A stretch of 55,358 nt of DNA, from positions 1-55,358 of the forward strand of contig JAJEAL010000002.1 in NCBI GenBank assembly GCA_022822785.1. The letters are read 5' to 3'. The notes below the pieces were generated by a model that saw nothing but the letters and a program-made list of their open reading frames with translations, had not been told where the DNA came from and ran no database searches. Origin of the DNA: Candidatus Poribacteria bacterium. GTDB taxonomy: Bacteria > Poribacteria > WGA-4E > PCPOR2b. The translations under genes were made by a program, and so were the position numbers. Shown one piece after another: positions 13,184 through 55,358 of the stretch; the stretch's first letter is position 1; every line of letters starts with the position of its first letter.

Positions 13184-13329
13184 GCACCGTGCTGCTGTGG
13201 TTACGGCATACAAAACCCCAATGAAATCGGAATTCAAAGCAATATGCCTACTAATTTCCTACGAAAATCTCGTCTTTTTCACACCTCATCCGTTTATACC
13301 TATTGAAACCAGCTAGATTGAGGGTAAGT

Positions 13330-37941: not shown

Positions 37942-37947
37942 TCCGCC

Positions 37948-38772
37948 TCAACGTGTTAGGGTGACTGTTTCCTGTTTGACAATCTCTTTGACATGTTTAT
38001 AGGGAGCAACCTCGATTAATTCTAGCGTCTCCGGCGACAATTGTGCCTGAATTTCGTCTGGGAACGGGTCAAACGTCCCGTAGGTGGTGTATTGCGGCAT
38101 GTACCGCAGTATCAGGAAGCGGCGGTCTCGATCTTCCGGCTGCCAGACAAGAACACCGTGGGTGAGCAATTCCGAGATAATGATTACATCACCAGCACGG
38201 GGGGTGATATTGGTCACGGCTGGATGTGGCTCCGGGTCGAGCTCAGCGCTGTCAGGGACAAAAAGATCGGGTGGGCGTAAAAACTCGCTTTTGTGCGAGC
38301 CCGGAATCACGACGAGCCCTCCATCCCCGGGCATCACATCCGTCAGATAGAAGAAGACAACGAAAAAGTCACAGTAAACCCGTCCATCTTGGCAGAAATA
38401 ACGAGGCATTTCCGGGCCGCCACCCCCTTCCCGCGCACAGTGCAGTGGATGAAATCGTTGTCCATGGGTATTTCGCCCCAGCGTACCGCTGGTAAACCGG
38501 GGTTTGTCGCCGGTCAACTCTTTAACGATGGACCAAGTTACCGGATGAAAACAGAGAGACTCCAATGCCTTGTCGAATGCAAAACCGTGGGAATAGGGGG
38601 TAAAGTCTGGACGCTCTAGATTTGCCCCAAATCCAGGTTCCCATTTTTCGGGCGGAGTACGGATGTAGCGATCGGCTGCACTTTGGGCTTGTTTCAGTTC
38701 TTCAGGGTTGAGCACATTCTCCAAGTGAAGATAGCCAGTCACATCAAATAGGTAGCGTTGCTTGGGAGTCAT
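37948..38772 (-). CDS. PhyH-like dioxygenase with unusual metal-site sequence
   Basis: A 274-residue member of the PhyH superfamily. Family features: FDVTGYLHLENVLNPEEL at the N-terminus, VFFYLTDVMPGDGGLVVIPGSHKSEF in the core, and the distal His with following Arg in LLTHGVLVWQPEDRDRRFLILRY. At the place of the usual HxD it reads RFHPLHCAREGGGG, so the aspartate ligand is missing; an LHGGG-type variant is known in related marine lineages (general knowledge). ATG 38772 is preferred, six bases after GGAG, although GTG 38787 and ATG 38784 are also possible. It is followed directly by the lipoprotein gene and preceded on the same strand by another PhyH gene. Confidence 0.85.
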   Translation of the reverse strand: MTPKQRYLFDVTGYLHLENVLNPEELKQAQSAADRYIRTPPEKWEPGFGANLERPDFTPYSHGFAFDKALESLCFHPVTWSIVKELTGDKPRFTSGTLGRNTHGQRFHPLHCAREGGGGPEMPRYFCQDGRVYCDFFVVFFYLTDVMPGDGGLVVIPGSHKSEFLRPPDLFVPDSAELDPEPHPAVTNITPRAGDVIIISELLTHGVLVWQPEDRDRRFLILRYMPQYTTYGTFDPFPDEIQAQLSPETLELIEVAPYKHVKEIVKQETVTLTR

Positions 38773-38832
38773 TGAAATCTCCATCACTCGTTAAATAGTG
38801 TGACATTTTGTAGGACAGGGGTTCGGTGCACC

Positions 38833-39684
38833 TTATGTTTTGTTCTCTGTATGCCCTGTCATCACTTCTTCCTGATCCGAGGGGGAATAAAAATAAGATC
38901 CGGGCTGCCATTCCCCAATATCCCCAATCAATCTTCGCTGTCGGGGCGTACAGCGTGCCAAAAGGTCTGGTGATGCCTCCCTATAATCGTAAGCACGGAA
39001 GCAATGATGATTATAGCAGTAAATGAGTGTTTTGCGTGCAGAGTTAGATCTATTAGTTGCTGCGCCATGCCATAACGCATGTGGGAAAACGGCTGCGTCT
39101 CCAGCCTTTACACAAAGCTGCACCGCTTCGGCGTTGTGAGGATTTTCTGCGTTGCCAAGTTGTGCTATCGGGAAAGGACAGTGGTGGCTGCCAGGAACAA
39201 TAGTAAAGTTTCCATGATTAGAAGCAGCGAGCGGCGTCAGGAAATATTGAATTTTAATCTGTAACGGTAGGCTATTTTTATCGACGCGTATCCGTTGCAT
39301 TGCTTGACCGCCATCTGGGTGCAGTGCGTGCGAAAACCCTTTACAGTCGGGGTTCGGAGGCCGAATCATAGCTTGAGACATACTTAATTGGATGAAGGGA
39401 CCAAGGAGTTCAAGCACGACAGGGAACGTCACGGGGTGATCAATCAGTTGGACGAAAATATCACTATCCTCAATAATGTTTAGTCTGTTGAGCCCGGTGT
39501 ACGCCTCGGTTTCAGATCCATCTAGCGGATTTTCGGATAGGTACTTTCGATGTTCTTCATCCATCCCATCAATAACGGCAGTGAGATGCTTGACTTCTCC
39601 TGCAGAAAGGACACCTTTTAGAACAAGATAACCATCTTCAATCCATTGACGCTTCTGTTCTTCGGTTAAAACACCCATTCCCAT
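38833..39684 (-). CDS. PhyH-family dioxygenase
   Basis: A 283-residue Fe(II)/2-oxoglutarate dioxygenase of the PhyH type. The N-terminal WIEDGYLVLKGVLSAGEV is typical; the metal site reads HALHPDGGQAM (HxD) with the distal His in PHALWHGAATN and the 2-oxoglutarate-binding Arg in the following SARKTLIYCYN. GSHHCPF marks the double-stranded helix. ATG 39684 follows GAGGAAA. It lies upstream of the second PhyH gene on the same strand, so the two may act on related substrates. Unlike its neighbour it keeps all expected ligands. Confidence 0.88.
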   Translation of the reverse strand: MGMGVLTEEQKRQWIEDGYLVLKGVLSAGEVKHLTAVIDGMDEEHRKYLSENPLDGSETEAYTGLNRLNIIEDSDIFVQLIDHPVTFPVVLELLGPFIQLSMSQAMIRPPNPDCKGFSHALHPDGGQAMQRIRVDKNSLPLQIKIQYFLTPLAASNHGNFTIVPGSHHCPFPIAQLGNAENPHNAEAVQLCVKAGDAAVFPHALWHGAATNRSNSARKTLIYCYNHHCFRAYDYREASPDLLARCTPRQRRLIGDIGEWQPGSYFYSPSDQEEVMTGHTENKT

Positions 39685-39800
39685 GATGGTTTCCTCAAAT
39701 GTTTAGCGTTTCGTATCCTGTTGCACGCAAACTTTCACGAGCATTAATCAGGTTAAACGAAAAGCTGTTATCTTTCCACAACAGATGACTATAATTCTCC

Positions 39801-39829
39801 TTGAGTTTTGTCTGTGCTTTAGATATAAT
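39801..39829 (+). promoter_or_regulatory. promoter for the first STAS gene (TTGAGT-N17-TATAAT)
   Basis: TTGAGT at 39801-39806, 17 bases, then TATAAT at 39824-39829. The start point would be near 39836, about 137 bases before the chosen ATG at 39973. Confidence 0.6.
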
Positions 39830-39972
39830 AAAAGGATAAAATCTTGGTACACTATTTGACTATTACCATGGATTCCAGAGGGGACTCAGATTTTGCGAAT
39901 TTGAAGCGCAGCTCTTTGAGTCTGGTTAATACTATATTGTTATTTTTAACAACTATTGGGAGTGAAGATTCT

Positions 39973-40314
39973 ATGGCAAATGAATCGATGACCATTCGCG
40001 AAAACGCGGATGCAAAGATTGTTGATGTGAATGAAGATTTGGGAAGCTACGCTGCGGCCGATTTGCGAACAACGATTGATGAGCTGATTGGCGGAGCATC
40101 GCGGCAGATTGTTATAAATCTAAGCGAGGTCCAACATATTAATAGCACAGCTATCGGTGCGATGGTCGGTGCTGCAAAGCGGCTTCGCCAGAACAGCGGC
40201 GACCTCAAGGTTTACGGCCTAGCGGATAACTTGAAACGGACATTTGATTTGGTGGGTGCCTCCAGCGTTCTCGAAATCTATGATTCAGAGAGTAGCGCCC
40301 TTGCCGCGTTCTAA
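39973..40314 (+). CDS. STAS-domain anti-sigma-factor-antagonist-like protein, type 1
   Basis: A 113-residue single STAS domain, the protein that in partner switching binds an RsbW-type kinase when unphosphorylated. The motif region reads HINSTAIGAMVG: the serine that is phosphorylated in SpoIIAA (S58 there) is kept, but the preceding Asp is Asn. The rest (GSYAAADLR, RQIVINLSEV, LKVYGLADNLKRTFDLVGAS) is typical. It closely resembles the STAS protein at 42339 and forms a pair with it. The ATG at 39973 is preferred over the open frame from 39844, which would add an unconserved N-terminus. Confidence 0.9.
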   Translation: MANESMTIRENADAKIVDVNEDLGSYAAADLRTTIDELIGGASRQIVINLSEVQHINSTAIGAMVGAAKRLRQNSGDLKVYGLADNLKRTFDLVGASSVLEIYDSESSALAAF

Positions 40315-40855
40315 ATCACGATTTAGGCGTTAATTTAGAGAAAAGGTTATCAATCTTGCTGACAAGTCCCCGCAGCCCAAACCCTTTCGGGAGTCCGATA
40401 AATTGTGCCCCGGGGGGCTGTAGTCAACTAAGCCTTGTCAGTCAGTCAAAAAAAGTGCTACTTTTGTAATCCACACGTTTTGCACAGTTTTGCGGTAAAA
40501 TAACCACTTAGAAACGGATATACAACTGAAATCGGCAAGACGGGTAAAATTCTCCAGCAATTTCGCGCCCTCCGACGGGAAGGCGTTGTCGTATGTCCGG
40601 TTCCCCGGTGTCCCTCGTGAGTCCGATAAATCGTGACTGGGGAAGAAGTAGGGAGCGCATTATCCATTGGAGTAGATACGGTAAGACGCCTCACGGGTGC
40701 AAGTATTGTTGATACCACAATTCGACGCCTTAAAGGAGCAGGGAAAAATCCTCATCCTTTAGGGTGTGGGAGTATGCCAAAAGTGCTTCTACTAGGAGGG
40801 CTTGGTTTGTAGAAGCCTTAGCCAAGTCCTTAACTTGTTATATTGGTGTTCTGGT
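40315..40855. other. 540-bp non-coding region inside the signalling island
   Basis: No convincing gene. It contains a near-exact 17-base direct repeat, GAGTCCGATAAAT-t/c-GTG, at 40391-40407 and 40619-40635, and ends with a possible transposon remnant (40633-40812). The direct repeats are surrounded by G/C-rich hairpin-forming bases, but I could not match the region to a known riboswitch. Confidence 0.5.
40633..40812 (+). mobile_element. possible IS200/IS605-type right-end remnant
   Basis: A short frame of 59 codons ends in KNPHPLGCGSMPKVLL. The DNA for it contains an imperfect hairpin TCCTCATCC-ttta-GGGTGTGGGA (about 40749-40771), a structure and sequence context that resemble the right ends of IS605-family elements just at the end of tnpB. 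No transposase body is present. Assignment is by resemblance only. Confidence 0.25.
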
Positions 40856-41317
40856 ATGACCCAAGAAGATAAAATAGGACAAGAAATTCTCAAGCTCACA
40901 GTACCTAGTTGCCTAAAGTATATTCGCCCAGTTCAGATGTTTATTGGACAATTGGCACAACAGCTTGGGTTTTGCCGGACCCGCATTTATGATATTGAGC
41001 TTATTATTGATGAGGTGTGTAGCAACGCCATCGAACACGGTTCAGAAACCCGTGATTCAGGAATCGATGTGACTCTCATGTTCGATTCACGCAAGCTGGA
41101 AATTCAGGTTCGAGACAAAGGGAAATCCGTAAGGAAGAATTGGCTAGCAACTGGGAGGCTAGATGAAGTTTCCCAAAAGATGACACCTGACAGCGAGCGT
41201 GGACACGGTATTTTTCTCGCCAAAAAGCTTTCCGATTCCCTCGAAATACTGACCAATCCTCTTGGGGGAACTGATGTCCAGATTATTTTCTACCTTTCTA
41301 CAAGCAATGCTTCTTGA
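40856..41317 (+). CDS. RsbW/SpoIIAB-like serine kinase (HATPase), type with altered G1 box
   Basis: A 153-residue GHKL ATPase of the anti-sigma kinase type. The N box is IDEVCSNAIEHG (about residues 56-67), the G2 box ERGHGIFLAKKL is intact, but the G1 box reads VRDKGKSV where DxGxG is expected, so the second glycine is lost. Such kinases phosphorylate a STAS partner and sequester a sigma factor or another target. ATG 40856 is preferred over 40802, which adds residues absent from the family. It lies 19 bases upstream of a STAS gene, its likely partner. Confidence 0.88.
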   Translation: MTQEDKIGQEILKLTVPSCLKYIRPVQMFIGQLAQQLGFCRTRIYDIELIIDEVCSNAIEHGSETRDSGIDVTLMFDSRKLEIQVRDKGKSVRKNWLATGRLDEVSQKMTPDSERGHGIFLAKKLSDSLEILTNPLGGTDVQIIFYLSTSNAS

Positions 41318-41336
41318 CATGTAAAGGAATAAACTC

Positions 41337-41684
41337 ATGGAATTTAACATTCGTCAGAGGGCCGGGGTTATCATTCTGAGTCCAAGCGGTGAAATCATTG
41401 GAGATGCCAGCCGTGAGTTTCGGGAAGTCGTTGCTGAGCAGCTTGCGGCAGCTTCTGAGTCACCCAAATTTTTATTTGATTTCGCTGTTGTCCCAATGAT
41501 AGACAGCACTGCGTTAGGAGTGCTCATCGGCACACGGGTCACCATTACGTCTAACGGTGGAGAGCTTGCTCTTATCAACCTTAGCTCAAAAATTAAAACC
41601 CTCATCACTGCATCGAAATTGACTACAGTGTTTGAACAATACCCCAACGAAGATGAAGCAATTGATGCACTAACAAGCCATTGA
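41337..41684 (+). CDS. STAS-domain anti-sigma-factor-antagonist-like protein, type 2
   Basis: A 115-residue STAS domain. It starts MEFNIRQRAGVIIL and has the phosphorylation region MIDSTALGVLIG with the standard Asp-Ser. It is closely related to the STAS protein at 50130 (shared FNIRQR/VDIRQR start, FLFDFA, and C-terminal EDEAIDAL). It follows the RsbW-like gene by 19 bases in the same direction, behaving like a kinase-antagonist pair. AAAGGAA precedes the ATG. Confidence 0.92.
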   Translation: MEFNIRQRAGVIILSPSGEIIGDASREFREVVAEQLAAASESPKFLFDFAVVPMIDSTALGVLIGTRVTITSNGGELALINLSSKIKTLITASKLTTVFEQYPNEDEAIDALTSH

Positions 41685-41739
41685 AACGGAATAGAGCGAT
41701 TGGCTGAAAGTATCGTATACTCTCTATGAGATGATGCTT

Positions 41740-42156
41740 CTATGTAAGTTTTTTGACCATCCTAATGAGTGTGCCAGACTTTTCATAGGTAACATCATCC
41801 ATACATGATTCAATCAAAAAAAGTCCTCTACCACTACTTTTAAATAGATTTTCGGGCTGCATTGGATCAGGGACCCGTTCCCGGTCGAATCCTGGTCCTT
41901 GATCCTGAATAACAACGGTAAACCGATCTGGCTGAAGAATAAATTCAAAATAAGCGCGTTTATCCGGATTTTCCTGATTCCCATGTTTGATTGCATTAGT
42001 ACCCGCTTCAATCACTGCCAGATTGATTTGGTCGCTTAATTCTTCATCTAACGCTAGTTGACTAAGAATTTCGGTAATGACAGCGTGCAAGGTATGAACC
42101 CACCGTAGTGAGCTAGGAACATCTAGGCGAATCACTTGTGCAACTGTTTGCTCCAC
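41740..42156 (-). CDS. RsbW/SpoIIAB-like serine kinase, complete ATP site
   Basis: A 138-residue GHKL ATPase. The N box LAVIEAGTNAIKHGN (about residues 46-60), a canonical G1 box IQDQGPGFD and a G2 box SGRGLFLIESCMDDV are all present, unlike the other RsbW-like protein of the island. The start is a GTG at 42156 after a purine-rich GGGAGAAG. It is divergent from the STAS gene at 42339, which is a plausible substrate. Confidence 0.9.
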   Translation of the reverse strand: MEQTVAQVIRLDVPSSLRWVHTLHAVITEILSQLALDEELSDQINLAVIEAGTNAIKHGNQENPDKRAYFEFILQPDRFTVVIQDQGPGFDRERVPDPMQPENLFKSSGRGLFLIESCMDDVTYEKSGTLIRMVKKLT

Positions 42157-42338
42157 TTGACTTCTTCTCCCATATCATTTGATTAGCCATCACCGATGCA
42201 CGAAAAGGAGAGTGTACGACATCGGAGGTGAGTGTAGGCAGGTATACCCACTATTATTGTTATTTGATATTTGACTGATTGATTCTGAAACATTTTCGCA
42301 TGAGCGCGGGAACATCATTGTGAAGGGGTAACAATCTT

Positions 42339-42680
42339 ATGTTAGAAGAATCATCGCACATCCGCCAAAACGCAGATGTCAAAATTATCGATGTCAACAG
42401 CTATTTGGGGAGCTACGCGGCTGCCGATTTACGCGAAACGCTTGCCAACTTAGTAAACCAGGATGTTCAGAAAATTGTTGTAAATTTGAGCAAGGTCGAA
42501 CATATCAACAGTATGGCTATTGGAGTCCTTGTTGGTACTGCGAAGCAGCTTCGTCTTAAAGATGGGGATGTCAAGATTTACGGCTTAGCCGAAAATATCA
42601 GGCGGACCTTCGATTTGATTGGTGCCTCTGATATTGTTGAAATTCATGACTCAGAAGATAGCGCCCTAGCTACTTTCTGA
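42339..42680 (+). CDS. STAS-domain anti-sigma-factor-antagonist-like protein, type 1 (second copy)
   Basis: A 113-residue STAS domain very similar to the protein at 39973 along its whole length (shared IRQNADVKIIDVN, LGSYAAADLR, KIYGLAENIRRTFDLIGAS). The motif reads HINSMAIGVLVG, again with Asn before the phosphorylatable Ser. It converges on the REC-phosphatase gene. GAAGGGG lies nine bases upstream of ATG 42339. The two type 1 proteins look like a duplication that was kept. Confidence 0.92.
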   Translation: MLEESSHIRQNADVKIIDVNSYLGSYAAADLRETLANLVNQDVQKIVVNLSKVEHINSMAIGVLVGTAKQLRLKDGDVKIYGLAENIRRTFDLIGASDIVEIHDSEDSALATF

Positions 42681-42750
42681 GGAAACATCGACGAACATCT
42701 CACTAGTGGACTAAAGCCAAAAAAAACCTAGATATAGGTGCAGGCTTCTA

Positions 42751-43935
42751 CTATTTCGGTTGACACCCATCAATAGCGACAATCGTAATATCGTCATGTT
42801 TCGACTGGCCGCCACAAAATTGATTGACTGTGTCGATGACAGTTTCCACAAGGGTAGGTGCCGGTTGAGCAATTTGTTGATTGATTACCTCCTGGATGCC
42901 TTGGGGGGTAAACTCCTCGCCTTGTGAGTTTTGGAGTTCATAAGCACCATCGGTATACAGAAAGAGCCCATCCAAAGGGGCGAACGGATACCGGCTTGTT
43001 TGATATGTCGAGTCTGGCAGCAGCCCCAACCCCTTCCCAACTAACCGATTTTCGAGAGGCTTACAGACATTTTGCTGACGTTGGATTAAGAATGGAAAGG
43101 GATGCCCTGCGTTTGCATAGTGTAACGTCTGATTGGCAAGATCTAGAACAGCACAAAATGCGGTTGCAAACATATATTGTTGCGAACTAATCATCTTGTT
43201 GAACCGAGCATTCAATTCTTCGAGTAAGCGTCCGGGATCATCCGTTTGTGCACGTATCTCCTCAACAACTGTTTTAATGAACACAGTGATAAAGGCTGCG
43301 GGGACCCCGTGACCCATCACATCGGAAATGAAAACACCCAACCGTCCTCGTTCAACTTCCCACAAATCGAAAAAATCGCCGCCGACCACAACTGCTGGTG
43401 TATAGTGGGAAACAATCTGGAAACCTAACAAATCGGTGATTCCTTGAGGCATTAAGCTATCCTGGATCTCACTCGCCATCTGTAACTCTTTATCCAAACG
43501 TTCATTATGCAGCTTGAGGTCATGATTGGCTTGTTCCAATGCGTCATGGTATTTTTTAATACGCACCAGTGAGCGCACTCGAGCAAGGACTTCATGGCTG
43601 TCGAAGGGCTTAGAAATAAAATCGTCCGCACCAGCCTCAATTGCCGTGATTCGGTCCTCCTTGTCTAATAGAGCTGTTACCATCACGACTGGAATAAATT
43701 GCGTTGCCTCTTCTGCACGCATCCGTCGACACACCTCAAATCCATTCATTCCTGGCATCATAACATCGAGCAGAACCAAATCGGGCGAATCGGTCTGCAC
43801 CCGTTCAAGGGCTTCCTGACCGTTTGTTGCTGTGAGGACCGTATACCCAGCTGTCTGGAGCCGAATCTGAAGTAATCGGATGTTTTGCGGTTCGTCATCA
43901 ACAACAAGGATGTTGGCATTGACTGGCTCATTCAT
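42751..43935 (-). CDS. response-regulator-coupled SpoIIE/RsbU-type PP2C phosphatase
   Basis: A 394-residue protein with an N-terminal receiver domain (about 1-125; phosphoacceptor D57 in LVLLDVMMPG, later FISKPFD), a coiled-coil linker (about 128-165) and a C-terminal SpoIIE/PP2C domain (about 185-390) carrying the metal-binding VGGDFFDLW, FISDVMGHG, LFLYTDGAYE and HDDITIVAI. Such phosphatases dephosphorylate STAS antagonists and so release the target of the kinase. Phosphorylation of D57, perhaps by the hybrid kinase in this island, would link two-component and partner-switching signalling. Confidence 0.95.
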   Translation of the reverse strand: MNEPVNANILVVDDEPQNIRLLQIRLQTAGYTVLTATNGQEALERVQTDSPDLVLLDVMMPGMNGFEVCRRMRAEEATQFIPVVMVTALLDKEDRITAIEAGADDFISKPFDSHEVLARVRSLVRIKKYHDALEQANHDLKLHNERLDKELQMASEIQDSLMPQGITDLLGFQIVSHYTPAVVVGGDFFDLWEVERGRLGVFISDVMGHGVPAAFITVFIKTVVEEIRAQTDDPGRLLEELNARFNKMISSQQYMFATAFCAVLDLANQTLHYANAGHPFPFLIQRQQNVCKPLENRLVGKGLGLLPDSTYQTSRYPFAPLDGLFLYTDGAYELQNSQGEEFTPQGIQEVINQQIAQPAPTLVETVIDTVNQFCGGQSKHDDITIVAIDGCQPK

Positions 43936-44003
43936 TATCTTCGTGTCCTTTGAGACAGGAAATAAATCGATTAGGATTACGGATGTGAAGCATATTGGAA
44001 GGA

Positions 44004-44366
44004 TTATATCATAGATCTATCTCTATCTACACTATCCAGATCCGCCAACGCCTCATCTTCAGTATCGTACAAATCAAAGACATTATTGAGTTTAGTGATA
44101 AGCAACAGCGATCTGACAGACCTGTCGACATTTGAGAGCAAAAGTCTCACCTCACGCCGCATGAGCGAAGCGCGCAAAGCGACCAACATACCTAATCCAA
44201 CGCTGTCCATTAAGTCGACATCCTGGAGATTCAGGACGACATTTTTTCCTCCGCTATCAACCAGCTCCTCAATTTTATCGCTCAATTGAAGGCGATCATC
44301 GCCGAGAATACTGCCTGAAATGTGGAGAATAACATTCTCTTTTTGATATTTGATCGAAATTTCCAT
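44004..44366 (-). CDS. STAS-domain anti-sigma-factor-antagonist-like protein
   Basis: A 120-residue STAS domain with VNLQDVDLMDSVGLGMLVAL-type motif region; the Asp-Ser pair is standard. It is more distant from the other four and has a charged C-terminal tail (SVDRDRS). ATG 44366 is preferred over a start at 44432, which would add a hydrophobic stretch not found in the family, although its ribosome site GGGAG is about 12 bases away. It lies 68 bases upstream of the REC-phosphatase gene on the same strand, so the phosphatase may act on it. Confidence 0.88.
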   Translation of the reverse strand: MEISIKYQKENVILHISGSILGDDRLQLSDKIEELVDSGGKNVVLNLQDVDLMDSVGLGMLVALRASLMRREVRLLLSNVDRSVRSLLLITKLNNVFDLYDTEDEALADLDSVDRDRSMI

Positions 44367-44646
44367 GATATGAGATACTCCCACTAGAAATATGGAATTA
44401 AAAAGGTGAATAAAGCTTATCGAAAGGTACACATTATTTCATGGCCAACAATTGGTGATGCAGATTGCCCAATCGTTGACCATCAAAATTGCAAGCTAGC
44501 AACTCGCGCTATAATGCATCCTTTTTATGACTAAGCACGATTTTCAGTTTATCATAGTCCTGTGTTGAGCGTCAATTGTTTTTAAAAACACCCTCGCTCT
44601 CGAATCTGCTTGAGTCCTTGGAAAATACTACCCATCCACAGATTTA

Positions 44647-45015
44647 TCAACTAAGATAGTTTCCCACCATATCAACAAGAAGGTGCGTGTCAACCGGTTT
44701 GCTGATATAGTCATCACAACCTGCTGCGCGAAACTGTTCCTGATCGCCTTTCATTGCTGCAGCAGTTAAAGCAATAACTGGTATATGAGACCATTCGGAA
44801 TTGGCTTTAATCTGTCGAGTCAGTTCTTCCCCACTGATACCAGGAAGCGCAATATCCATCAAAATCAGATCCGGTAGTCCGGCTTGTAACATCCTAAGTG
44901 CCTCCTCCGCGTCAACAGCTTCAAGCACTTCATAGCCCTTCGCCTTTAACACGATTCGTACAATCTTTCGGTTCATTTCCATGTCTTCGACGATTAGAAT
45001 CCGCTTGGTGCTCAT
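44647..45015 (-). CDS. stand-alone receiver protein (CheY/DivK-type)
   Basis: A 122-residue single receiver domain. The acidic pocket is ED at residues 10-11, the phosphoacceptor is D54 in ILMDIALPG, and the switch residues are in ALTAAA and YISKPVD. There is no output domain. It starts 17 bases after the stop of the hybrid kinase on the same strand, so it is likely a shuttle or sink of that kinase. Confidence 0.94.
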   Translation of the reverse strand: MSTKRILIVEDMEMNRKIVRIVLKAKGYEVLEAVDAEEALRMLQAGLPDLILMDIALPGISGEELTRQIKANSEWSHIPVIALTAAAMKGDQEQFRAAGCDDYISKPVDTHLLVDMVGNYLS

Positions 45016-45032
45016 GCATGTGTCTCCGCTTT

Positions 45033-47684
45033 CTAAGTTGGCGTTCGTAAACGTTCGATTCTTTTGATTGCCGCTAACAGTTCTTCCTTAACCTTACCCG
45101 TCTTGGGGATGACTGACTGAATCTGACCGTTGAGTCGGCTTCGATCCTCGTCAGTGAGATCCAACGCCGTGCAGATGATAATCGGGATGTTCTGGGTCCG
45201 CGGATCATCGGTTAAACGTCGAATAACCTGGAAACCATCTACTTTAGGCATCATCATATCAAGGATAATCAGATCTGGCGATTGGGAGATTGCGGCTTCA
45301 ATCGCCTCGCTTCCTCCATAAACTTTCACAACCTCATATCCGTCGTTTGTCAGCACAGTGGAGAGTAACCGAACCGTCTGTGGGTCATCATCAACAACAA
45401 GAACACGAGGTGAACCGGCGCGACTAGGAAGCTTCAAAGATCGGAGTGAGGTAAGAAGTGCTCCTTTATCAATGGGTTTAACCAAATGGTCCACCGCACC
45501 CAATCCAAACGCCAATTGACGTTCTTCCGTTACAGAAAGGATGATGACCGGAATCGATTGCAAATTCGGTTGGGTCTTCATTTCTTTAAGCACTTGCCAG
45601 CCATCCTTTTTCGGTAGCAGAATGTCAAGCGTGATTGCAAATGGGTGTATTTCAGCAGCTTTGGCAATGGCTTCTTCACCATCTGTGGCATACTCCACTT
45701 GGTATCCGGCCTCTGTCAGATAAATGCCTACAAGCTGAGCGGCTTGTTCATTGTCTTCAGCAACTAAGATAGTACGGTTGTTACCAAGAGGGGGCGAAGT
45801 TTCAGGCAAGGACAGTTCTGGTGCGATCAGGTCAGCTACCTCACCCTGTTGGTGCAGCGGAAATGTAAAGAAAAAGGTGCTCCCTTTATCTACCTCGCTC
45901 TCAACCCAAATCCTTCCTCCATGCAACTCGATCAGTCGATTAGTCAACGCTAATCCCAGTCCAGTACCGCTATGTGCACGAGTCCTTGAAGCATCGAGTT
46001 GTGTAAAAGGTTGAAATAACTTTTCGCGATCCTGAGGCGAGATACCCACCCCGGTATCAGTGACACTGCCTAGCAACGCCGAATTAGAGATTTCAAACTG
46101 TGTAGTAACTTCCCCACCTTCATCGGTAAACTTGATAGCGTTAGAAAGCAGATTGTAGAGGATTTGCTTGAATTTAATCTTATCGGCTTTTATTGAGATT
46201 TCTTGATTAAATTCGAGAGAGAGTTGAATCTGTTTCTTGCTTGCAAGGGCAGTCACAATAGCATTGACTTCTGTCACGGCCTCCTTAACGGAGAAATCTT
46301 CCAGCTGCAACTCCATTTTACCCGCCTCGATTTTTGATAAATCCAGAATATCATTAATCATAGCGAGCAGATGATTACCGCTGGTATGGATGTCGAGGAT
46401 TAATTCTTTCTGCTCATCGTTAATAGTACCTAAGATTTCGTCCCGCAAAATCTCAGAAAATCCGATCACCGCGTTTAACGGGGTGCGGAGTTCGTGACTC
46501 ATAGTAGCGAGGAACTCACTCTTGGCACGGTTAGCATGTTCAGCGGCGTCTTTGGCTTCCTGTAACGCCATCTCCGCCTCCACTCGATCGGCGATATCCG
46601 TGTTAATACCGACCCAATTAATAATCTGCCCCGACTCATCTCGGACAGGGGCGCCAATAAAAATAAAAGTTTGATAGGAACCATCTTTAGCTCGAAACCG
46701 GCATTCGCCGCTGTATGTCTCGCCGTGCATGTAGGCGCGTTCCCATTTTGCGAGTACATCTGGAAGATCTTCTGGGTGTAACGCTTCAGCCCACCGCGTG
46801 CCTAGTGATTCCTCTGCTGTACGCCCAGAAAAATCATGCCAAGCTTTATTTAGAAGCGCTATCTGACCGTCAGCATCGGCAACCCAAATGATTTGTGGCG
46901 CTGCTTCAATGAGCGTCCGATAGAGCGCTTCTTGAGCGGCCAATGCTCTTTCCGCCTCTTTCTGTTTGGTTACATCCCGCCACGTTGACCGACTCGCGAC
47001 AATCTTGCCGGTTTCGTCACGCATTGGCGTCGCCTGTAGAAGTACCTCAATGGTACTACCATCGGCTCGGCAAAGGGTCCGTTCCTGTCGAATAATTTGA
47101 CCTGTCTCAACGAATGTTGAGGACGTCTGTTGTGCAGCTTCTATCGATTCAGGTGCGTACAGCTCCAAGAACGAACGCCCCGTAATTTCCTCTTTGCTGC
47201 GACCAATAACATCCGCGAGGGTTTGGTTACATTCTAAAATGTTTCCGGAAACTAAATCAACGACTGCCATCATATCCGGCGCATTTTCGTAGAGGTCACG
47301 ATAGTGAGCTTCTGCCCGTTTACGTTCGGTAATGTCCCGTGCAACCGCATAATATAATTGCTCTTCAAGGGAAACGGTTGAACTCCACAAAAGCCACTTA
47401 TAGGAACCGTCTTTGCACAGATAACGATTTTCAAAGGAAACGACATCCTCGCCAGTCGTCATAATCTCTTGGGCTACAGCTATTGTCGCTTCCTGATCGT
47501 CAGGGTGAACAAACTCGATGAATGGTTTTGATTTTAGTTCTTCAACTGTAAAGCCGAGGGTTTTTTCCCACATAGGGTTCAGTTCTCTGAAGTGACCGTC
47601 GAAACCGGCGATACACAGCATATCTAGCGATAAGGTAAAAAAGCGGTCTCGTCCAGTAGCAGTGGTATCGGCAGGAATAGTCAT
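45033..47684 (-). CDS. cytoplasmic PAS-PAS-PAS hybrid histidine kinase with two receivers
   Basis: An 883-residue sensor kinase without membrane segments. PAS domains at about 12-120, 125-245 and 250-370, each ending with the PAC-type motif (RDITERK, RDVTKQK, NTDIADR); HisKA domain with the phospho-His H397 in MSHELRTP; HATPase domain with NLLSNAIKF (N box, 511-519), DTGVGI (G1) and GTGLGLAL (G2, 573-580); then two receivers with phosphoacceptors D687 (TLDILLP) and D809 (ILDMMMP). ATG 47684 follows AAAGGAGG. The signal is sensed in the cytoplasm and may be redox, light or a ligand. It forms an operon with the stand-alone receiver. Confidence 0.95.
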   Translation of the reverse strand: MTIPADTTATGRDRFFTLSLDMLCIAGFDGHFRELNPMWEKTLGFTVEELKSKPFIEFVHPDDQEATIAVAQEIMTTGEDVVSFENRYLCKDGSYKWLLWSSTVSLEEQLYYAVARDITERKRAEAHYRDLYENAPDMMAVVDLVSGNILECNQTLADVIGRSKEEITGRSFLELYAPESIEAAQQTSSTFVETGQIIRQERTLCRADGSTIEVLLQATPMRDETGKIVASRSTWRDVTKQKEAERALAAQEALYRTLIEAAPQIIWVADADGQIALLNKAWHDFSGRTAEESLGTRWAEALHPEDLPDVLAKWERAYMHGETYSGECRFRAKDGSYQTFIFIGAPVRDESGQIINWVGINTDIADRVEAEMALQEAKDAAEHANRAKSEFLATMSHELRTPLNAVIGFSEILRDEILGTINDEQKELILDIHTSGNHLLAMINDILDLSKIEAGKMELQLEDFSVKEAVTEVNAIVTALASKKQIQLSLEFNQEISIKADKIKFKQILYNLLSNAIKFTDEGGEVTTQFEISNSALLGSVTDTGVGISPQDREKLFQPFTQLDASRTRAHSGTGLGLALTNRLIELHGGRIWVESEVDKGSTFFFTFPLHQQGEVADLIAPELSLPETSPPLGNNRTILVAEDNEQAAQLVGIYLTEAGYQVEYATDGEEAIAKAAEIHPFAITLDILLPKKDGWQVLKEMKTQPNLQSIPVIILSVTEERQLAFGLGAVDHLVKPIDKGALLTSLRSLKLPSRAGSPRVLVVDDDPQTVRLLSTVLTNDGYEVVKVYGGSEAIEAAISQSPDLIILDMMMPKVDGFQVIRRLTDDPRTQNIPIIICTALDLTDEDRSRLNGQIQSVIPKTGKVKEELLAAIKRIERLRTPT

Positions 47685-47868
47685 GGTAGTTTTCCTCCTT
47701 TATCTTTCGGTCTCGAATTTTTGATAATCCGGGAAGCGATGGACCGAACCCCTAAAGTTTTTGGACAGGAATAAACGAAGCCCTTCACAGATTAGTTAGG
47801 CAAGAATTGCTTGACGAATTTTCTGAGAAGTATACGTTATAGGTTCTTGATTTTTCTGATGACCAGCT

Positions 47869-49698
47869 TCATTTCTTTTTTAGCACCATCAACGTAAAAT
47901 CGTCAAAGCGTTGGGCTTCTCCCTGGAACTCTAGCGTTGAATTATAAATTTCTCCGCAGATTTCGCTGGCATTTTCATAGCGGAGTGTTTTCATCAGTTT
48001 CTCTAACCGCTCTTCCTCATACATTTCATCGTAGATGTTTGTTGTTTCAGTAACACCATCGGTATAAAATAAAACCGTATCCCCACTGTAAAGTTGAGTA
48101 GTTTCCTCTTCATATTCCGCTATCCGAGCAATCATATGGTCAGGATACATACCTATCATTAACCCTCCCGCTTTTAACCGTTGTATGCTGCCATCCTGGC
48201 GGATAACTAGAGGATCGTTGTGCCCTGCATTCAGTGAGGTGAGTCTGCCTGTTTCTGGATGCAAGCGGGCATAAACGAGCGTGGCGTATTTGTCAAGTGG
48301 GCTGCTCTCGCGGATAAGGGTATTTAGCGCCATTGCCCTTATCGGCAGGTCCGTCTGTTTTGCAACTTCTGAGAGTAACGCTGCACGGAGAGTCGCCATC
48401 AATAGAGCTGCTTGCATACCTTTGCCAGCAATATCAGCAATTACTAATCCCCACGAGCTATCTGTTTCACGAATGTAATCATAGTAGTCACCTCCAACCC
48501 CATCATGATGGGGTATGCTCATCCCAGCGATTTCATAGCCCGGGATTTCTGGGGGCGCCTTTGGCAGCAGGTTTTCCTGAATCTTTGCTGCCTCCTCCAT
48601 TTCTGCCTGCAATCGACGCCCCTCAATTGCTTCCTGGTAAAGGCGCGCATTTTCGATCGCCACACCAACTTGTGTGGCAAAGGCTTCGAGTAGAATTCTA
48701 TCTTCATCGGTAAATTCTAGTGTAATGCCAGCTCGCCCTTCTTTACCAAAAACAACGAGTATCCCTAAGATTTCCCGTCCAAAAACTGGCACAGCTATCA
48801 AATTTTTCTCACCAAATAGTGCAGCGGTATCTTGGTCGTTGCAAATCTGCGTTTTCCCTTCTATTGCAACTTCACGAAACATAGAAAGCGTGGGATGAAT
48901 CTTTTGATCGGTCTTTAAAGGAATTGCAAAAGATTTAAGATCTGAGGGGAATCGCAAATCAAGCGCGAATGGATTTCTCATTTCGAGCTGCTGTGTAACG
49001 GGATTAATAAGCATGAGACGTCCCGCGCTAGCGTCTAGCAAACTGATAGCGTGATTGACGATTTCCTCTTCTAACTGCTCTGTATTTAAATCTAGCAGTT
49101 TAGCAATTTGAGCAGTTGTATCGGAAAGCATAAAGAGACGGAACTTAGCTGCACGCATATCCTCTTGAGAACGTGAATGTGCGATCGCAACAGAGATATG
49201 GTCAGCAAGAACCTTTAATAGCTCCCGAATCCAACCTGTATCTTCGGAATCATTCAAAAATTCGCCCAGGCTGATAACACCTAGAAATTCCTCATGAATG
49301 TTTAACGGAGCCCAGAGGGTTGCATTTAGAGTTAGTAGCTGCGGCTGAATCTCCTCCAAGAATGATTGCAGGAGGGCGGGAGGTTGGGAAAAGTCAAGGG
49401 AAGAACATTGGAGCATAACATCAATTTCATCGGATGTAATCGGAATGGGCATTACCGCGTTGACAGACTCACCTGCGGTCTCAATTGATGATTCAACGGC
49501 AAGTAGACGTTCTACCGGATTATAGCGCAATATGGCACCTGTGGCTGCCTGCAACGTTTTGAGAACTATCCGCAGATAGATCTGGCTTGAGGCATCAAAG
49601 CTGCTCTGCCCGGAAACGATCGCTTTACCGACCTCTTCAATCTCAGACAGGCCTTGAATTAGCCGCTGCATGGTTTGTTCAGCCGAATCAGTCTGCAT
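47869..49698 (-). CDS. GAF-GAF-SpoIIE/RsbU-type PP2C phosphatase
   Basis: A 609-residue cytoplasmic phosphatase. Two GAF-like sensory domains (about 15-175 and 195-350; the second with LIAVPVFGREILGILVVFG and AFATQVGVAIENARLYQEA) precede a coiled-coil linker and a SpoIIE/PP2C domain (about 395-608) with GGDYYDYI, VIADIAGKG, VLFYTDGVTE and FDDFTLMVL. GAF domains typically bind small ligands and would set the phosphatase activity. It differs from the REC-phosphatase at 42751, so two separate inputs reach the STAS proteins. Confidence 0.95.
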   Translation of the reverse strand: MQTDSAEQTMQRLIQGLSEIEEVGKAIVSGQSSFDASSQIYLRIVLKTLQAATGAILRYNPVERLLAVESSIETAGESVNAVMPIPITSDEIDVMLQCSSLDFSQPPALLQSFLEEIQPQLLTLNATLWAPLNIHEEFLGVISLGEFLNDSEDTGWIRELLKVLADHISVAIAHSRSQEDMRAAKFRLFMLSDTTAQIAKLLDLNTEQLEEEIVNHAISLLDASAGRLMLINPVTQQLEMRNPFALDLRFPSDLKSFAIPLKTDQKIHPTLSMFREVAIEGKTQICNDQDTAALFGEKNLIAVPVFGREILGILVVFGKEGRAGITLEFTDEDRILLEAFATQVGVAIENARLYQEAIEGRRLQAEMEEAAKIQENLLPKAPPEIPGYEIAGMSIPHHDGVGGDYYDYIRETDSSWGLVIADIAGKGMQAALLMATLRAALLSEVAKQTDLPIRAMALNTLIRESSPLDKYATLVYARLHPETGRLTSLNAGHNDPLVIRQDGSIQRLKAGGLMIGMYPDHMIARIAEYEEETTQLYSGDTVLFYTDGVTETTNIYDEMYEEERLEKLMKTLRYENASEICGEIYNSTLEFQGEAQRFDDFTLMVLKKK

Positions 49699-49754
49699 TT
49701 AAGAACCTTGTTTTTATAGTGAATTATAGAAATAAGTAGACATTAATAGTAGTA

Positions 49755-49840
49755 GGCACACTCCGTGTGCCGTAACCCGGCGAACAAGGTTCGTGACTTG
49801 GTTCGCTCATCACGTCTAAGTAATTCTAAAATCTACCATA
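49755..49840. repeat. dispersed repeat family A, copy 4
   Basis: A hairpin GGCACA (49755-49760) with TGTGCC (49766-49771), and further on the family tail taattctaaaatctaccata (about 49821-49840) also found at 21921-21940 and, less well, at 13965-13983. Confidence 0.6.
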
Positions 49841-49938
49841 ATATAATCGTTCACCTAGGCAAAACGACATCTTTCACACAGGAACATCCTTATCTGCCTG
49901 AGAATCACGTCAATCAACAAAATAATGCACTATGCTAG

Positions 49939-49971
49939 GGCTTTAACCGGTCTGCCCCTCCGGTTAAAGCC
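49939..49971. repeat. 12-bp perfect hairpin GGCTTTAACCGG/CCGGTTAAAGCC
   Basis: Arms at 49939-49950 and 49960-49971 around a 9-base loop. No T-run follows on either strand, so it is not a clear terminator. It lies downstream of the STAS gene at 50130 in transcription direction. Confidence 0.75.
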
Positions 49972-50129
49972 TTGGCAGCCACGTACCCACTCTGACCCTG
50001 AGCAATAGATTTTCTAAGCTTATGTTGGCTTTGATACTACACCCCAAATTACCCAATTAGAGCTGCAGGGCAAATTGACATAAGCTACGACCTGTGCTAG
50101 TGAACAGGTTTTGGTAGAGGCAACTATGG

Positions 50130-50480
50130 CTATGCGCCAGCAAGCGCGGCAATAGCTTCATCCTCACTGTCAAAATGCTCAAATGTAGAAATTAACCGGC
50201 TCCTGATAATCAGACTCTTGACATTCTTTTCACTGACGTTGATGACACCAATTCGGCCACCCTTCTGTGCGATAGATACGTGTGCACCGAGCAGGGTTCC
50301 GAGTCCAGAGCTGTCCATCATTGAAACCTCAGCAAAATCAAATAACAATTTCGGTGCCTCAGAAATTTTCCCGCTCTCCTCATTAATTGCCTTACTAAGA
50401 TCGCGAACAGATCTTCCAATAATTCTGCCCTTAGGCTTTAAGATGACTACATCATCTCTTTGACGAATATCGACAGCCAT
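50130..50480 (-). CDS. STAS-domain anti-sigma-factor-antagonist-like protein, type 2 (second copy)
   Basis: A 116-residue STAS domain with the canonical SpoIIAA-like motif MMDSSGLGTLLG. It begins VDIRQRDDVVIL and ends EDEAIAALAGA, closely matching the protein at 41337. AGGAGG lies just upstream of ATG 50480. It may be encoded with the GAF phosphatase downstream, although 430 bases of repeats separate them. Confidence 0.93.
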   Translation of the reverse strand: MAVDIRQRDDVVILKPKGRIIGRSVRDLSKAINEESGKISEAPKLLFDFAEVSMMDSSGLGTLLGAHVSIAQKGGRIGVINVSEKNVKSLIIRSRLISTFEHFDSEDEAIAALAGA

Positions 50481-50947
50481 TAGTTTTCCTCCTATCTGTT
50501 ACTCGCAACACACACTGTCCACCGCCAGAAACTGCGCTGCTCGGCCTATCATTTTGCGGCTTGAAACCCTTTATTGCAGGAGATGAAATATCTTAGCTAC
50601 TTCACGCAGGCTTATACAAGAACGAAATACGCCGTTCAGTAGCTGAATAATACCTGCTGCATTGATGATAGCCGTTCCCAAAAGTGCAATTTTGCCTGAC
50701 GCCGGGTATAGTTTTTATACTACTCTAAGTATCTCCTATTCTAAAGCAGACACAGATTTTTGTCAAGCCTTTAATTTTTTACGGTTCCAGCATATGAATA
50801 CCATTATCGGAGATCTAATGACTATCCTCTGTACTTACGTGCAGAACAGCTGCCGTTAAATTTGCATACCGTAAATCTGTTCCGTTTAAATCTAACAATA
50901 ATCGGGTTGGGTTGATATAACTGCTCAGTTTCAAATAGGTATTCTGC
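50481..50947. other. intergenic region between divergent STAS and CRP-like genes
   Basis: About 470 bases, AT-rich. Open frames here (for example 50662-50859) lack ribosome sites and motifs. I see no RNA gene. It ends at the promoter of the gene at 51017. Confidence 0.5.
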
Positions 50948-50977
50948 TTGACAAGACGTTGTGAGATACAATAGAAT
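50948..50977 (+). promoter_or_regulatory. promoter of the cyclic-nucleotide-binding gene (TTGACA-N18-TAGAAT)
   Basis: A perfect -35 TTGACA at 50948-50953, 18 bases, then TAGAAT (5 of 6) at 50972-50977. The start point near 50984 leaves a short leader with AAGGAGAG before ATG 51017. Confidence 0.7.
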
Positions 50978-51016
50978 TTGCAGATAAGGGCAACAGTCAG
51001 CAGAAGGAGAGATATT

Positions 51017-51697
51017 ATGGCAAAAGCAAAACAGTCTGATGCGACATGGGGGACAATCTTTAATAGACAGAGTAAAGCGAAGGTTGAACGAGATATCATT
51101 GATGTCCTCAAGGAGACTCTTGTTTTTGAGGGGCTCAACAATCGTGAAATTCAGAACATCGCACGTATCGCCTATCAACGACATTATAGTGCAGGCGAGA
51201 TCATTATCCACGAAGGGCAGAGCGCAGCAGGAATGTATATTATGGTGGATGGACAAGCAGAGGTCACTAAAGCCTTAGATGATGATGGGACCATTCTCCA
51301 ACTGACCACCTTAGAGGATAGCGAATTATTTGGTGATGTCGGATTATTGGATAGCTCCCCACGGACAGCCACAGTTAGAGCTACCCGCGACTCATACATT
51401 CTCGGTTTTTTCCGTCCAGAACTACTCGATCTAATGAATTCAAATCCAAGATTGGCGTCCAAGATTATCCTTAAGCTGGGTCAAATCCTTACGGCACGTT
51501 TCCGGTTTATACACAATGAATTTGAGAAGGCACAGGCAGAAATTGGCCGTTTGAAGACACAACTCACAGCAGCATCCCGCACAGACAGGGAAGAGGGCAG
51601 CACAGTCTCTAATGAAACCGGCATCAGCGGATCAGGGCTGGAAATTAAAGCTTCCGATGCTATGAACCCTAGCGATGCCGGAGAGGAGAGCAACTGA
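51017..51697 (+). CDS. cyclic-nucleotide-binding-domain protein
   Basis: A 226-residue protein with one CNB domain at about residues 35-150 (EIIIHEGQSAAGMYIMVDGQAEV, then ELFGDVGLLDSSPRTATVRA, which includes the phosphate-binding cassette). There is no helix-turn-helix after it, only a helical and Ser/Glu-rich tail, so it is not a CRP-type transcription factor but a binding or regulatory subunit. The arginine of the cassette (SSPRTATV) is kept, compatible with cyclic nucleotide binding. ATG 51017 follows AAGGAGAG. Its stop overlaps the start of the next gene by one base (TGATG), so the two are coupled. Confidence 0.88.
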   Translation: MAKAKQSDATWGTIFNRQSKAKVERDIIDVLKETLVFEGLNNREIQNIARIAYQRHYSAGEIIIHEGQSAAGMYIMVDGQAEVTKALDDDGTILQLTTLEDSELFGDVGLLDSSPRTATVRATRDSYILGFFRPELLDLMNSNPRLASKIILKLGQILTARFRFIHNEFEKAQAEIGRLKTQLTAASRTDREEGSTVSNETGISGSGLEIKASDAMNPSDAGEESN

Positions 51698-53283
51698 TGA
51701 ACGGATCTGCCAACCAAGATACGATCGCCGATCATCATACTGAGGCAGAGAGTTCCCAAGCAGCTGACCTCTCCACAGAACAGGCGCACGCACAAGTTGC
51801 CACACTCACAAGGGAGACGGTTATTCCACTAGTGGAAAATATTGGGACAATCACGTCGAATATCCGGGTCGCTGCCCGTGAAAGTCGAGAACAGACACGT
51901 CAAGCGCGAATAGCCAATACCTCACTGAAAATCATTGCTTTTGGTACAACATTGATTTCACTCGCAATTCTCATTGGTGTTGTCTATCTGCTTAAGGACA
52001 TTCTCGCCCTAGTGGTAGTCGCTTTCCTGATTGCCTACATTTTTAGTCCGATTGTAGATCTAATTGAGCGAAGAGGAGCCAATCGGACACTTGTAGTCAT
52101 TATCATAACCCTATTAGTGCTCGGTAGTCTTGCGTTTCTTTCAACAGTAACTGTGAATAGCATCACTGGACAGATTTGGAAGCAGCTACCACTGACCGCG
52201 GAACTAGACTTTAGAGATGATTTAGACCGTGGTGTAGTTCCAGACAACTTGCGACAGAAGTTTGTAGATGGGGGTGTTCTATTGTCCTTGAACGCAACAG
52301 TTGTCATCGAAGAAGCAAATAACCGATGGAAACTGGTGGACAGAGGGAACCGCCGTACATACGACATCCGAGAAGAAGAAAATCAACTGAAATTTTACAG
52401 AACGCTTGGATATTTTGCTGATTTTGAAAACCTTGTTGAGGCCATCACAATAGGATTAAATCAGATCCCAAAACCTGTGCGTACAGCTGTAATCGGTTAC
52501 CTTGAGAGCACCGGTTTGGTAGGAGCTTCCGGACAAAAGCCTATTCAGGAGTTTGACCGTGACCAAGTAAATGTCCTTGTTCAAGGATTACAAGACAGAA
52601 TTTCAGGATTTGCGATTGGACAATCCCAGTCGATTATCAATGCAATTGGCACTTCCGCGAAGGGTGCGCTTTCCGCATTTACAACCGGTATCATTCTCTT
52701 ATTTTTAACCTTCTTTCTTCTTAACGGCGGAAGCCAAATAAAGAAAACTTTCATTCAGCTTGTACCGAATCGTTTCTTCGAGCCAGCTTTGGTGCTGATT
52801 CAGGAGCTAGATCGGCAATTAGGGGATTACCTTCGCAGTCGTTTAGCTCAGACAATAATACTCTCAATAGTTGCGTCAATTGGATATTGGATCTTGGGAC
52901 TGCGGTTCGCTATCCTCATCGGAATTATTGCTGGATTAGCAAACCTGATTCCGTATATCGGTCCCCTTATTGGGGCGATTCCTGCAATCGTCGTTGTTTT
53001 TCTAGATTCCCGATTCGGCATCGGTTGGAGCTTGTTGGCTGTAATCATTTTGACGCTTCTGATACAAATCATCGATAATGCGATTATTACGCCATTGGTG
53101 ATAGGCAAAAGTGTTGAGTTGGGGCCCGTAACCACAATTGTCGCAGTATTACTTGGCGAGCAATTACTTGGCTTAATCGGTCTGTTAATGGCGGTTCCGA
53201 TTGCTGCAATGTGCAAGTTAATTATTGAGACAATATGGACGCAATTTAAGGGATATTCACAGTCAATTCTCGTGGGATACTGA
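51697..53283 (+). CDS. AI-2E family transporter with an extracytoplasmic insertion
   Basis: A 528-residue membrane protein of the AI-2E (UPF0118/PerM) family. About eight membrane segments are seen: three near residues 85-160, and the rest from about 320 to 515, with the family's conserved GLRFAILIGIIAGLANLIPYIGP and IIDNAIITPLVIGKSVELGP. Residues about 165-290 form a soluble stretch with VVIEEANNRWKLVDRG, longer than usual. The N-terminal 80 residues are polar. Family members have been linked to autoinducer export or to ion/proton antiport, so the substrate is uncertain. Coupling with the CNB gene suggests regulation by a nucleotide second messenger. Confidence 0.88.
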   Translation: MNGSANQDTIADHHTEAESSQAADLSTEQAHAQVATLTRETVIPLVENIGTITSNIRVAARESREQTRQARIANTSLKIIAFGTTLISLAILIGVVYLLKDILALVVVAFLIAYIFSPIVDLIERRGANRTLVVIIITLLVLGSLAFLSTVTVNSITGQIWKQLPLTAELDFRDDLDRGVVPDNLRQKFVDGGVLLSLNATVVIEEANNRWKLVDRGNRRTYDIREEENQLKFYRTLGYFADFENLVEAITIGLNQIPKPVRTAVIGYLESTGLVGASGQKPIQEFDRDQVNVLVQGLQDRISGFAIGQSQSIINAIGTSAKGALSAFTTGIILLFLTFFLLNGGSQIKKTFIQLVPNRFFEPALVLIQELDRQLGDYLRSRLAQTIILSIVASIGYWILGLRFAILIGIIAGLANLIPYIGPLIGAIPAIVVVFLDSRFGIGWSLLAVIILTLLIQIIDNAIITPLVIGKSVELGPVTTIVAVLLGEQLLGLIGLLMAVPIAAMCKLIIETIWTQFKGYSQSILVGY

Positions 53284-53331
53284 AGTTAATGAGCTCGTCT
53301 CATACTCTAAAAGCGGTGGATAACTATTCAT

Positions 53332-55050: not shown

Positions 55051-55121
55051 AGCATTGTCTGAATGGGCTTATAAATTAGATTCCCTGATCTATCGGGAAT
55101 TTTACCCACAGTTTACCTTAG

Positions 55122-55358
55122 ATGATCTCTGTTATTATCCCGGTTCTGAATGAAGCCAAGATTTTAAATCAATCGCTATCCCGACTCACCCCTCAGCTAA
55201 AGGACCATGAGCTGATTATCGTCGATGGGAATAGTTCTGATGAAACCCTGTTGATTGCAAAAAAGTATGGTAAGGTAATTTCCGCCGAACGTGGGAGAGC
55301 CCGTCAGTCAAACGCGGGTGCTGCTGTGGCAAGTGGAGATATTCTTCTTTTTTTACAT
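55122..55358 (+). CDS. family 2 glycosyltransferase (start only, cut by window end)
   Basis: The first 79 codons from ATG 55122. MISVIIPVLNEAKIL and LIIVDGNSSDET are the GT2 (GT-A fold) nucleotide-sugar-binding signatures; RGRARQSNAGAAVASGDILLFLH follows and is reminiscent of the TIGR04283-type glycosyltransferases. The rest lies outside the window. The gene lies 71 bases after the cyclase and probably belongs to the same operon. Confidence 0.85.
   Translation, partial: MISVIIPVLNEAKILNQSLSRLTPQLKDHELIIVDGNSSDETLLIAKKYGKVISAERGRARQSNAGAAVASGDILLFLH

Follow-up and report, generated by a model that had tools for sequence, protein, structure and literature searches.

One of the closest described precedents for the locus reported here comes from Bacillus cereus, where a signal passes from RsbK to RsbY, and from there to RsbV/RsbW (PMC9912610, PMC4574943). 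There, one cluster encodes an RsbW-type kinase, a single-domain STAS protein, a receiver-PP2C phosphatase, and a hybrid kinase that ends in a receiver. A similar assembly, a partner-switching island, lies at positions 39973-50480 of a 55,358-nucleotide stretch of DNA (called the window below) from a Candidatus Poribacteria genome (5.6 Mb, 96% complete; genome-wide questions were answered by family searches). The same four kinds of protein are brought together in both (PMC9912610, PMC4574943). The B. cereus cluster, however, includes the sigma factor SigB and the methyltransferase RsbM. The poribacterial island has no sigma factor and no methyltransferase; it has five STAS proteins, two kinases, a second phosphatase carrying a GAF domain, and a lone receiver.

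Other described switches resemble the island in other ways. The icfG cluster of Synechocystis (the kinase Slr1861, the STAS proteins Slr1856 and Slr1859, and the phosphatase IcfG) would seem analogous in having several STAS proteins per kinase, in carrying its phosphatase within the cluster, and in listing no sigma factor. The available part of that report has Slr1861 and Ssr1600 controlling SigC, which is encoded away from the cluster, and describes neither a hybrid kinase nor a receiver phosphatase for icfG (PMC12329169). In Rhodobacter capsulatus, RbaV, RbaW, and RbaY combine a STAS-kinase pair with an RsbY-like receiver-PP2C, and the cognate sigma factor was not identified despite attempts. 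Unlike the poribacterial genes, rbaV-rbaW form a two-gene operon separate from rbaY, and the available part of the source reports neither a second kinase nor extra antagonists (PMC3999984). HsbR/HsbA of Pseudomonas and CrsR/CrsA of Shewanella again pair a response regulator with a STAS antagonist, there controlling an RpoS-type sigma factor; those response regulators interact with the sigma factor themselves, whereas the poribacterial kinases are separate small proteins (PMC6482189). Further switches without a linked sigma factor have been reviewed (PMC8256260).

The poribacterial island holds eleven genes, all of them intact: five for single-domain STAS proteins, two for RsbW-type kinases, two for SpoIIE-type phosphatases, one for a lone receiver, and one for a hybrid histidine kinase with three PAS domains. 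Each domain type that the original prediction had read from the DNA is recovered by Pfam, with E-values of 1e-18 to 7e-12 for the five STAS domains, 2e-19 and 1e-29 for the two HATPase_c_2 domains, 8e-47 and 2e-45 for the two SpoIIE domains, and 1e-27 for the receiver. The genome as a whole has 10 STAS, 3 clear HATPase_c_2, and 4 SpoIIE genes, of which the island contributes 5, 2, and 2. Within the genus, purifying selection acts on each of the eleven genes, with ratios of nonsynonymous to synonymous substitution (dN/dS) of about 0.05-0.21. A scan of the island found no sigma factor, as had been said of it before. Nor does the island contain sensor-STAS fusions of the RsbR type, all five STAS proteins being single-domain by Pfam; a stressosome (RsbR/RsbS/RsbT) reading was dropped on this ground.

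Much of this arrangement recurs in relatives, the order of the core genes being kept across a bacterial order. A scan with a profile of KIN1, the first of the RsbW-type kinases (40856..41317, plus strand; HATPase_c_2, 2e-19), returned 57 loci titled Candidatus or uncultured Poribacteria together with one weak match in Bacteroidetes; the contig scan used one narrow peptide pattern, and the 57 of 58 matches in Poribacteria are a biased count that is no proof of restriction. In nearly all of the 57 loci, as far as the contig reaches, the same core is kept: STAS1 and KIN1 face a gene for the receiver-PP2C (REC-PP2C), a lone receiver (REC), the hybrid kinase, and STAS5. STAS1 lies upstream of KIN1 wherever the contig extends that far. 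REC-PP2C and then REC, on the strand opposite to KIN1, are found in 55 of the 57, the remaining two ending at contig edges, and most loci also have a histidine kinase and STAS5. In family f3, 44 loci have a tandem universal stress protein gene between the kinase and the STAS gene. By profile search, KIN1-like genes occur in 77 of 85 genomes of the phylum, family f4 giving weak matches only and f7 being nearly empty. Among deeper families, a STAS gene adjoins KIN1 in f8, f9, and f10, and KIN1 adjoins a kinase, REC, and REC-PP2C in f6.

Gene order in relatives, which the original prediction had put forward as its own refuting test, is therefore conserved. An assembly artefact, in which genes from unrelated contigs were joined, is excluded because the same order appears in independent assemblies, including single-contig chromosomes.

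Conservation extends to the residues on which such a switch would turn. REC-PP2C (42751..43935, minus strand; Pfam 8e-47 and 2e-33) is an RsbY-like phosphatase that joins a receiver to a SpoIIE domain; its receiver Asp and Lys and its five PP2C Asp residues are invariant in 55 of 55 sequences. The Asp and Lys of the single-domain receiver (44647..45015, minus strand; Pfam) are invariant in 55 of 55 as well. The hybrid histidine kinase (45033..47684, minus strand; Pfam HisKA/HATPase_c), with three PAS domains and two C-terminal receivers, would have an RsbK-like role, and its His is present in 51 of 51. The island has the hybrid kinase and receiver-PP2C of an RsbK/RsbY input, and in these the His, the receiver Asp, and the Asp residues that bind metal are all intact. 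The counterpart of the hybrid kinase in family f3 lacks both receivers; therefore, REC and REC-PP2C are its likely acceptors.

The antagonists and KIN1 are similarly well kept. STAS1 (39973..40314, plus strand; Pfam STAS, 1.6e-15) is an RsbV/SpoIIAA-like single-domain antagonist with a predicted phospho-Ser58 in the motif INSTAIG; this Ser is retained in 56 of 56 relatives, with dN/dS of 0.06-0.10. STAS5 (50130..50480, minus strand; Pfam), likewise a single-domain antagonist, has a predicted phospho-Ser57 in MDSSGLG, retained in 50 of 50 relatives. Indeed, all five STAS proteins of the island carry a phosphorylatable Ser in a conserved motif. In KIN1, the Glu/Asn of the N-box, the Asp-x-Gly of the G1 box, and the Gly-x-Gly of the G2 box are invariant in 57 of 57 loci. 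Start codons matching those of relatives are the ATGs at 39973 (STAS1), 40856 (KIN1), and 44366 (STAS4). To judge from the sequences, the parts of a switch are present, their active sites are intact, and their order is conserved; from the same residues, we infer the kinase, phosphatase, and binding activities of these proteins.

In its wiring, the island is probably a partner switch on the RsbK/RsbY-RsbV/RsbW pattern, driven by a phosphorelay. A signal would cause the PAS hybrid kinase to phosphorylate itself and to pass the phosphate to the receiver of REC-PP2C, with the lone receiver competing for that phosphate or buffering it. The activated PP2C would dephosphorylate the serine of STAS1 and, probably, that of STAS5. 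Dephosphorylated STAS1 would then bind the adjoining KIN1, which, in turn, would free a client encoded elsewhere. Without the signal, KIN1 would re-phosphorylate STAS1 and hold the client. In favor of this wiring are the intact residues and conserved core order, the structural matches of the KIN1 model given below, the receiver-less kinase of f3, the second island with the same parts (also below), and the purifying selection on the genes.

A second input may enter through a 609 amino acid GAF-SpoIIE phosphatase, or GAF-PP2C (47869..49698, minus strand; Pfam), which is found in families f1 and f2 (loci L037, L038, L040, L041, L043, L044, and L046). This protein had been described as GAF-GAF-SpoIIE. 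One GAF domain and the SpoIIE domain are borne out; the N-terminal GAF domain falls below threshold (E 0.009, 17 versus 22.4 bits) and is likely genuine. The broader proposal, that several inputs (PAS/phosphorelay and GAF) act on an antagonist/kinase switch whose output is encoded outside the island, is supported by the domains and by the islands of relatives. The same genome has a third, compact partner-switching cluster (C1:46999-49657; L056 4991-7781), which consists of a GAF-PP2C, a STAS protein, and an RsbW-like kinase. Its GAF-PP2C is 56% to that of the window, and no sigma factor adjoins it within the stretch read.

The remaining genes of the island are specific to the genus. STAS2 (41337..41684, plus strand; Pfam) is a duplicate of the STAS5 type, falling in the STAS5 clade with a Shimodaira-Hasegawa-like approximate likelihood ratio test (SH-aLRT) value of 99, and is absent from one congener. 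STAS3 (42339..42680, plus strand; Pfam) is a duplicate of STAS1 and falls in its clade, with dN/dS of 0.08-0.14. Between these two lies KIN2, the second RsbW-type kinase (41740..42156, minus strand; HATPase_c_2, 1e-29). The STAS2-KIN2-STAS3 block separates KIN1 from REC-PP2C, two convergent genes that in several f3 genomes overlap or have just a few bases between them. STAS4 (44004..44366, minus strand; Pfam), an antagonist on its own branch of the tree, separates REC-PP2C from REC, which adjoin in other genera. Judged by trees and gene order, the order-wide core is one kinase with two antagonist types, and the rest appears to have come by duplication and recruitment within the genus. The five STAS proteins and two kinases do not, on this view, make up a single machine of ancient origin.

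Two side observations concern the STAS1-KIN1 arm. The spacer between the two genes (window 40315-40855) is 541 bp long, versus about 90-135 bp in congeners, and holds two 37-nt direct repeats (40387, 40615) that are 76% alike; it looks like a species-specific insertion. In one congener (G005; L041 7398-7836), KIN1 is broken by frame changes, either a sequencing error or a pseudogene.

KIN2 has a history of its own. Its relatives occur in 80 of the 85 phylum genomes, mostly 53-65% identical, and their typical home is a second, paralogous island. There, an RsmG-like gene is followed by a STAS gene, a histidine kinase, REC-PP2C, KIN2, a STAS gene, and then an acetyl-CoA-carboxylase-type zinc ribbon gene; the genes from STAS to STAS run in one direction and repeat the first island's list of parts. 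Of the second-island kinases, the two that were scanned have HAMP together with PAS or with a Cache match below threshold; their inputs are therefore probably different. KIN2 copies from the first island form a clade of their own (99/99) that excludes the copies which the same genus has in its second island, and the idea that KIN2 is a simple recent copy of the latter was dropped. We do not conclude that the window genome has lost the second island, because RsmG, its neighbor elsewhere, is also missing from this assembly and an assembly gap is possible. Second-island KIN2 is often a 240-280 amino acid frame with two tandem KIN2-like stretches (L188 6122-6853, and other f3 (g8) genomes). What is unusual here, on the evidence of sequence, is that a parallel sister island exists and that its kinase family is found inside this genus's island. 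The additions STAS2, STAS3, STAS4, and KIN2 may couple the KIN1 switch to its parallel counterpart around KIN2, which is known from elsewhere in the phylum.

The identity of the client is a separate matter. We put the chance that KIN1 holds a sigma factor at a little under even. The favored guess, by analogy with Slr1861 and SigC in Synechocystis, would be a group 2 sigma factor, RpoD/RpoS-like and not linked to the island. The best structural matches to the KIN1 model (mean predicted local distance difference test score, pLDDT, of 77, with a poorly predicted ATP lid) are crystal structures of the anti-sigma kinases RsbW of B. subtilis (6m37) and SpoIIAB. Candidates are available: the genome has four full-length region-3 sigma factors (C4, C33, C131, and C145), all scoring best to RpoD/RpoS-type models. 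No SigB/F/G-type sigma factor passes the cut-off in the genome (best 137 versus 234 bits), and a FliA-type client was dropped since no candidate passes there either.

Several observations weigh against this reading, in its wiring or in its client. The G1 box and the ATP lid of KIN1 are divergent: by motif count, only about 8 of 57 loci have the second glycine of the box, and a conserved, Trp-containing lid sets KIN1 apart from RsbW and SpoIIAB. Against the NCBIfam RsbW cut-off of 145 bits, KIN1 scores 52, far below, and KIN2 scores 68; both belong to the RsbW/SpoIIAB superfamily, but are not equivalogs of RsbW by NCBIfam. Co-occurrence with KIN1 over the 85 genomes was followed for the RpoD/RpoS-like sigma factors other than the probable RpoD. 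An icfG/Slr1861-type switch would call for an unlinked group 2 sigma factor that is tied to the kinase. RpoD/RpoS-like sigma factors are present and unlinked, but none of the full-length ones matches the distribution of KIN1 perfectly. C145 is absent from f7, as is KIN1, yet present in f4, which has no clear KIN1 orthologue; C33 is present in f7, where KIN1 is absent; and f3 has KIN1 but lacks C131, which makes C131 an unlikely client. This leaves C145 as a weak favorite. Finally, both arms are preceded by putative promoters of the ordinary sigma-70 type, and nothing in these sites points to autoregulation through a special sigma factor. The site before the STAS1-KIN1 arm (TTGAGT-17-TATAAT; 39801..39829, plus strand) matches 10 of 12 consensus positions, with TTGACT-17-TAAAAT-like sites upstream of STAS1 in 17 of 56 relatives at no more than 2 mismatches, versus 6% of shuffles, which supports it weakly. 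That before the STAS5-to-phosphatase arm (TTGACA-17-TAGAAT; 50738..50766, minus strand) matches 11 of 12, and its type recurs in 43 of 49 relatives versus 8% of shuffles. Use of a group 2 sigma factor would not be distinguishable by such sites.

It is possible, at roughly one chance in four to our minds, that the antagonist is itself the output: dephosphorylated STAS1 or STAS5 would bind a target other than a sigma factor, and KIN1 would merely set the state of phosphorylation. The imperfect co-occurrence just described favors this, as do the core islands of relatives, which have no linked sigma factor. The loci scanned, about 1.56 Mb in all, contain no group 1-3 sigma factor (RpoD-, RpoS-, or SigB-like), and neither the island, nor its counterparts in relatives, nor the surroundings of the deeper-branching KIN1 genes show an output gene. 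The genes beside f3 islands (to judge from sequence, ribosomal protein S1, MetK, SahH, and so on) were considered as outputs and rejected; they look like housekeeping genes, and f1 does not share these flanks. The universal stress protein inside the arm in 44 f3 loci also fits an antagonist-as-output, and precedents exist in RbaV, SypA, and HmpV, a target other than a sigma factor having been proposed for RbaV and SypA, as far as the available parts of those sources go (PMC3999984, PMC8256260). Conversely, the structures nearest to KIN1, which is RsbW-like and has a single domain, are those of anti-sigma kinases, and RpoD/RpoS-like sigma factors are at hand in the genome.

Somewhat less probable is a reading that draws in the second island. 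Here, Poribacteria would have two parallel, paralogous RsbKY-type switches (usually a PAS kinase with KIN1, and a HAMP and PAS or Cache kinase with KIN2), the RsbW-type kinases would hold a client other than a sigma factor, and the two switches would be merged in this genus, with cross-talk between antagonists and kinases.

The genome has roughly two dozen ECF-like (extracytoplasmic function) sigma factors, and it is unlikely that one of these is the client of KIN1, KIN2, or both. Most of the 28 Sigma70_r2 matches in the genome lie outside the four region-3 sigma factors, and two ECF-type genes (13303-13899 and 26174-26773) are in the window itself, outside the island and 13-27 kb away. An ECF gene is not, however, a conserved neighbor, such genes being near just two of the scanned loci (L065 and L190), and anti-sigma factors of the RsbW/SpoIIAB type are known to act on region-3 sigma factors. 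That independent signaling genes were gathered by chance, with no common circuit, is very improbable: the differing origins of STAS2, KIN2, STAS3, and STAS4 and the varying sensor domains of the kinases would suit it, but the core order is kept in nearly all of the 57 loci though flanks differ between families, the paralogous island has the same parts, and all genes are under purifying selection.

As to surroundings, two adjoining PhyH (phytanoyl-CoA dioxygenase-like) genes at window 37948-39684 lie beside the island in most congeners as well; the family is abundant in Poribacteria (PMC3909097). An Rfam scan of 37000-55358 gave zero matches.

The island had been called the best candidate in the window for an undescribed system. 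As a new kind of system, this does not hold. Its logic matches that of B. cereus RsbKY (PMC9912610), and sigma-unlinked switches are known from the available parts of other reports (PMC3999984, PMC12329169, PMC8256260); because of these precedents, the island is filed under a known kind. A literature search for such a switch in this phylum found no description, and a paper on poribacterial single-cell genomics makes no mention of sigma factors, STAS proteins, or SpoIIE proteins (PMC3909097). The switch is real, conserved, and, as far as searched, undescribed in the phylum, but its kind is already known.

For an uncultured phylum of sponge symbionts, this provides a conserved candidate for a master switch of stress response or lifestyle, together with a short list of sigma factors. 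It adds a natural case to the question of what RsbVW clusters without a sigma factor control. It also shows a switch that appears to have grown by duplicating its antagonists and by recruiting a kinase from the family of its sister island.

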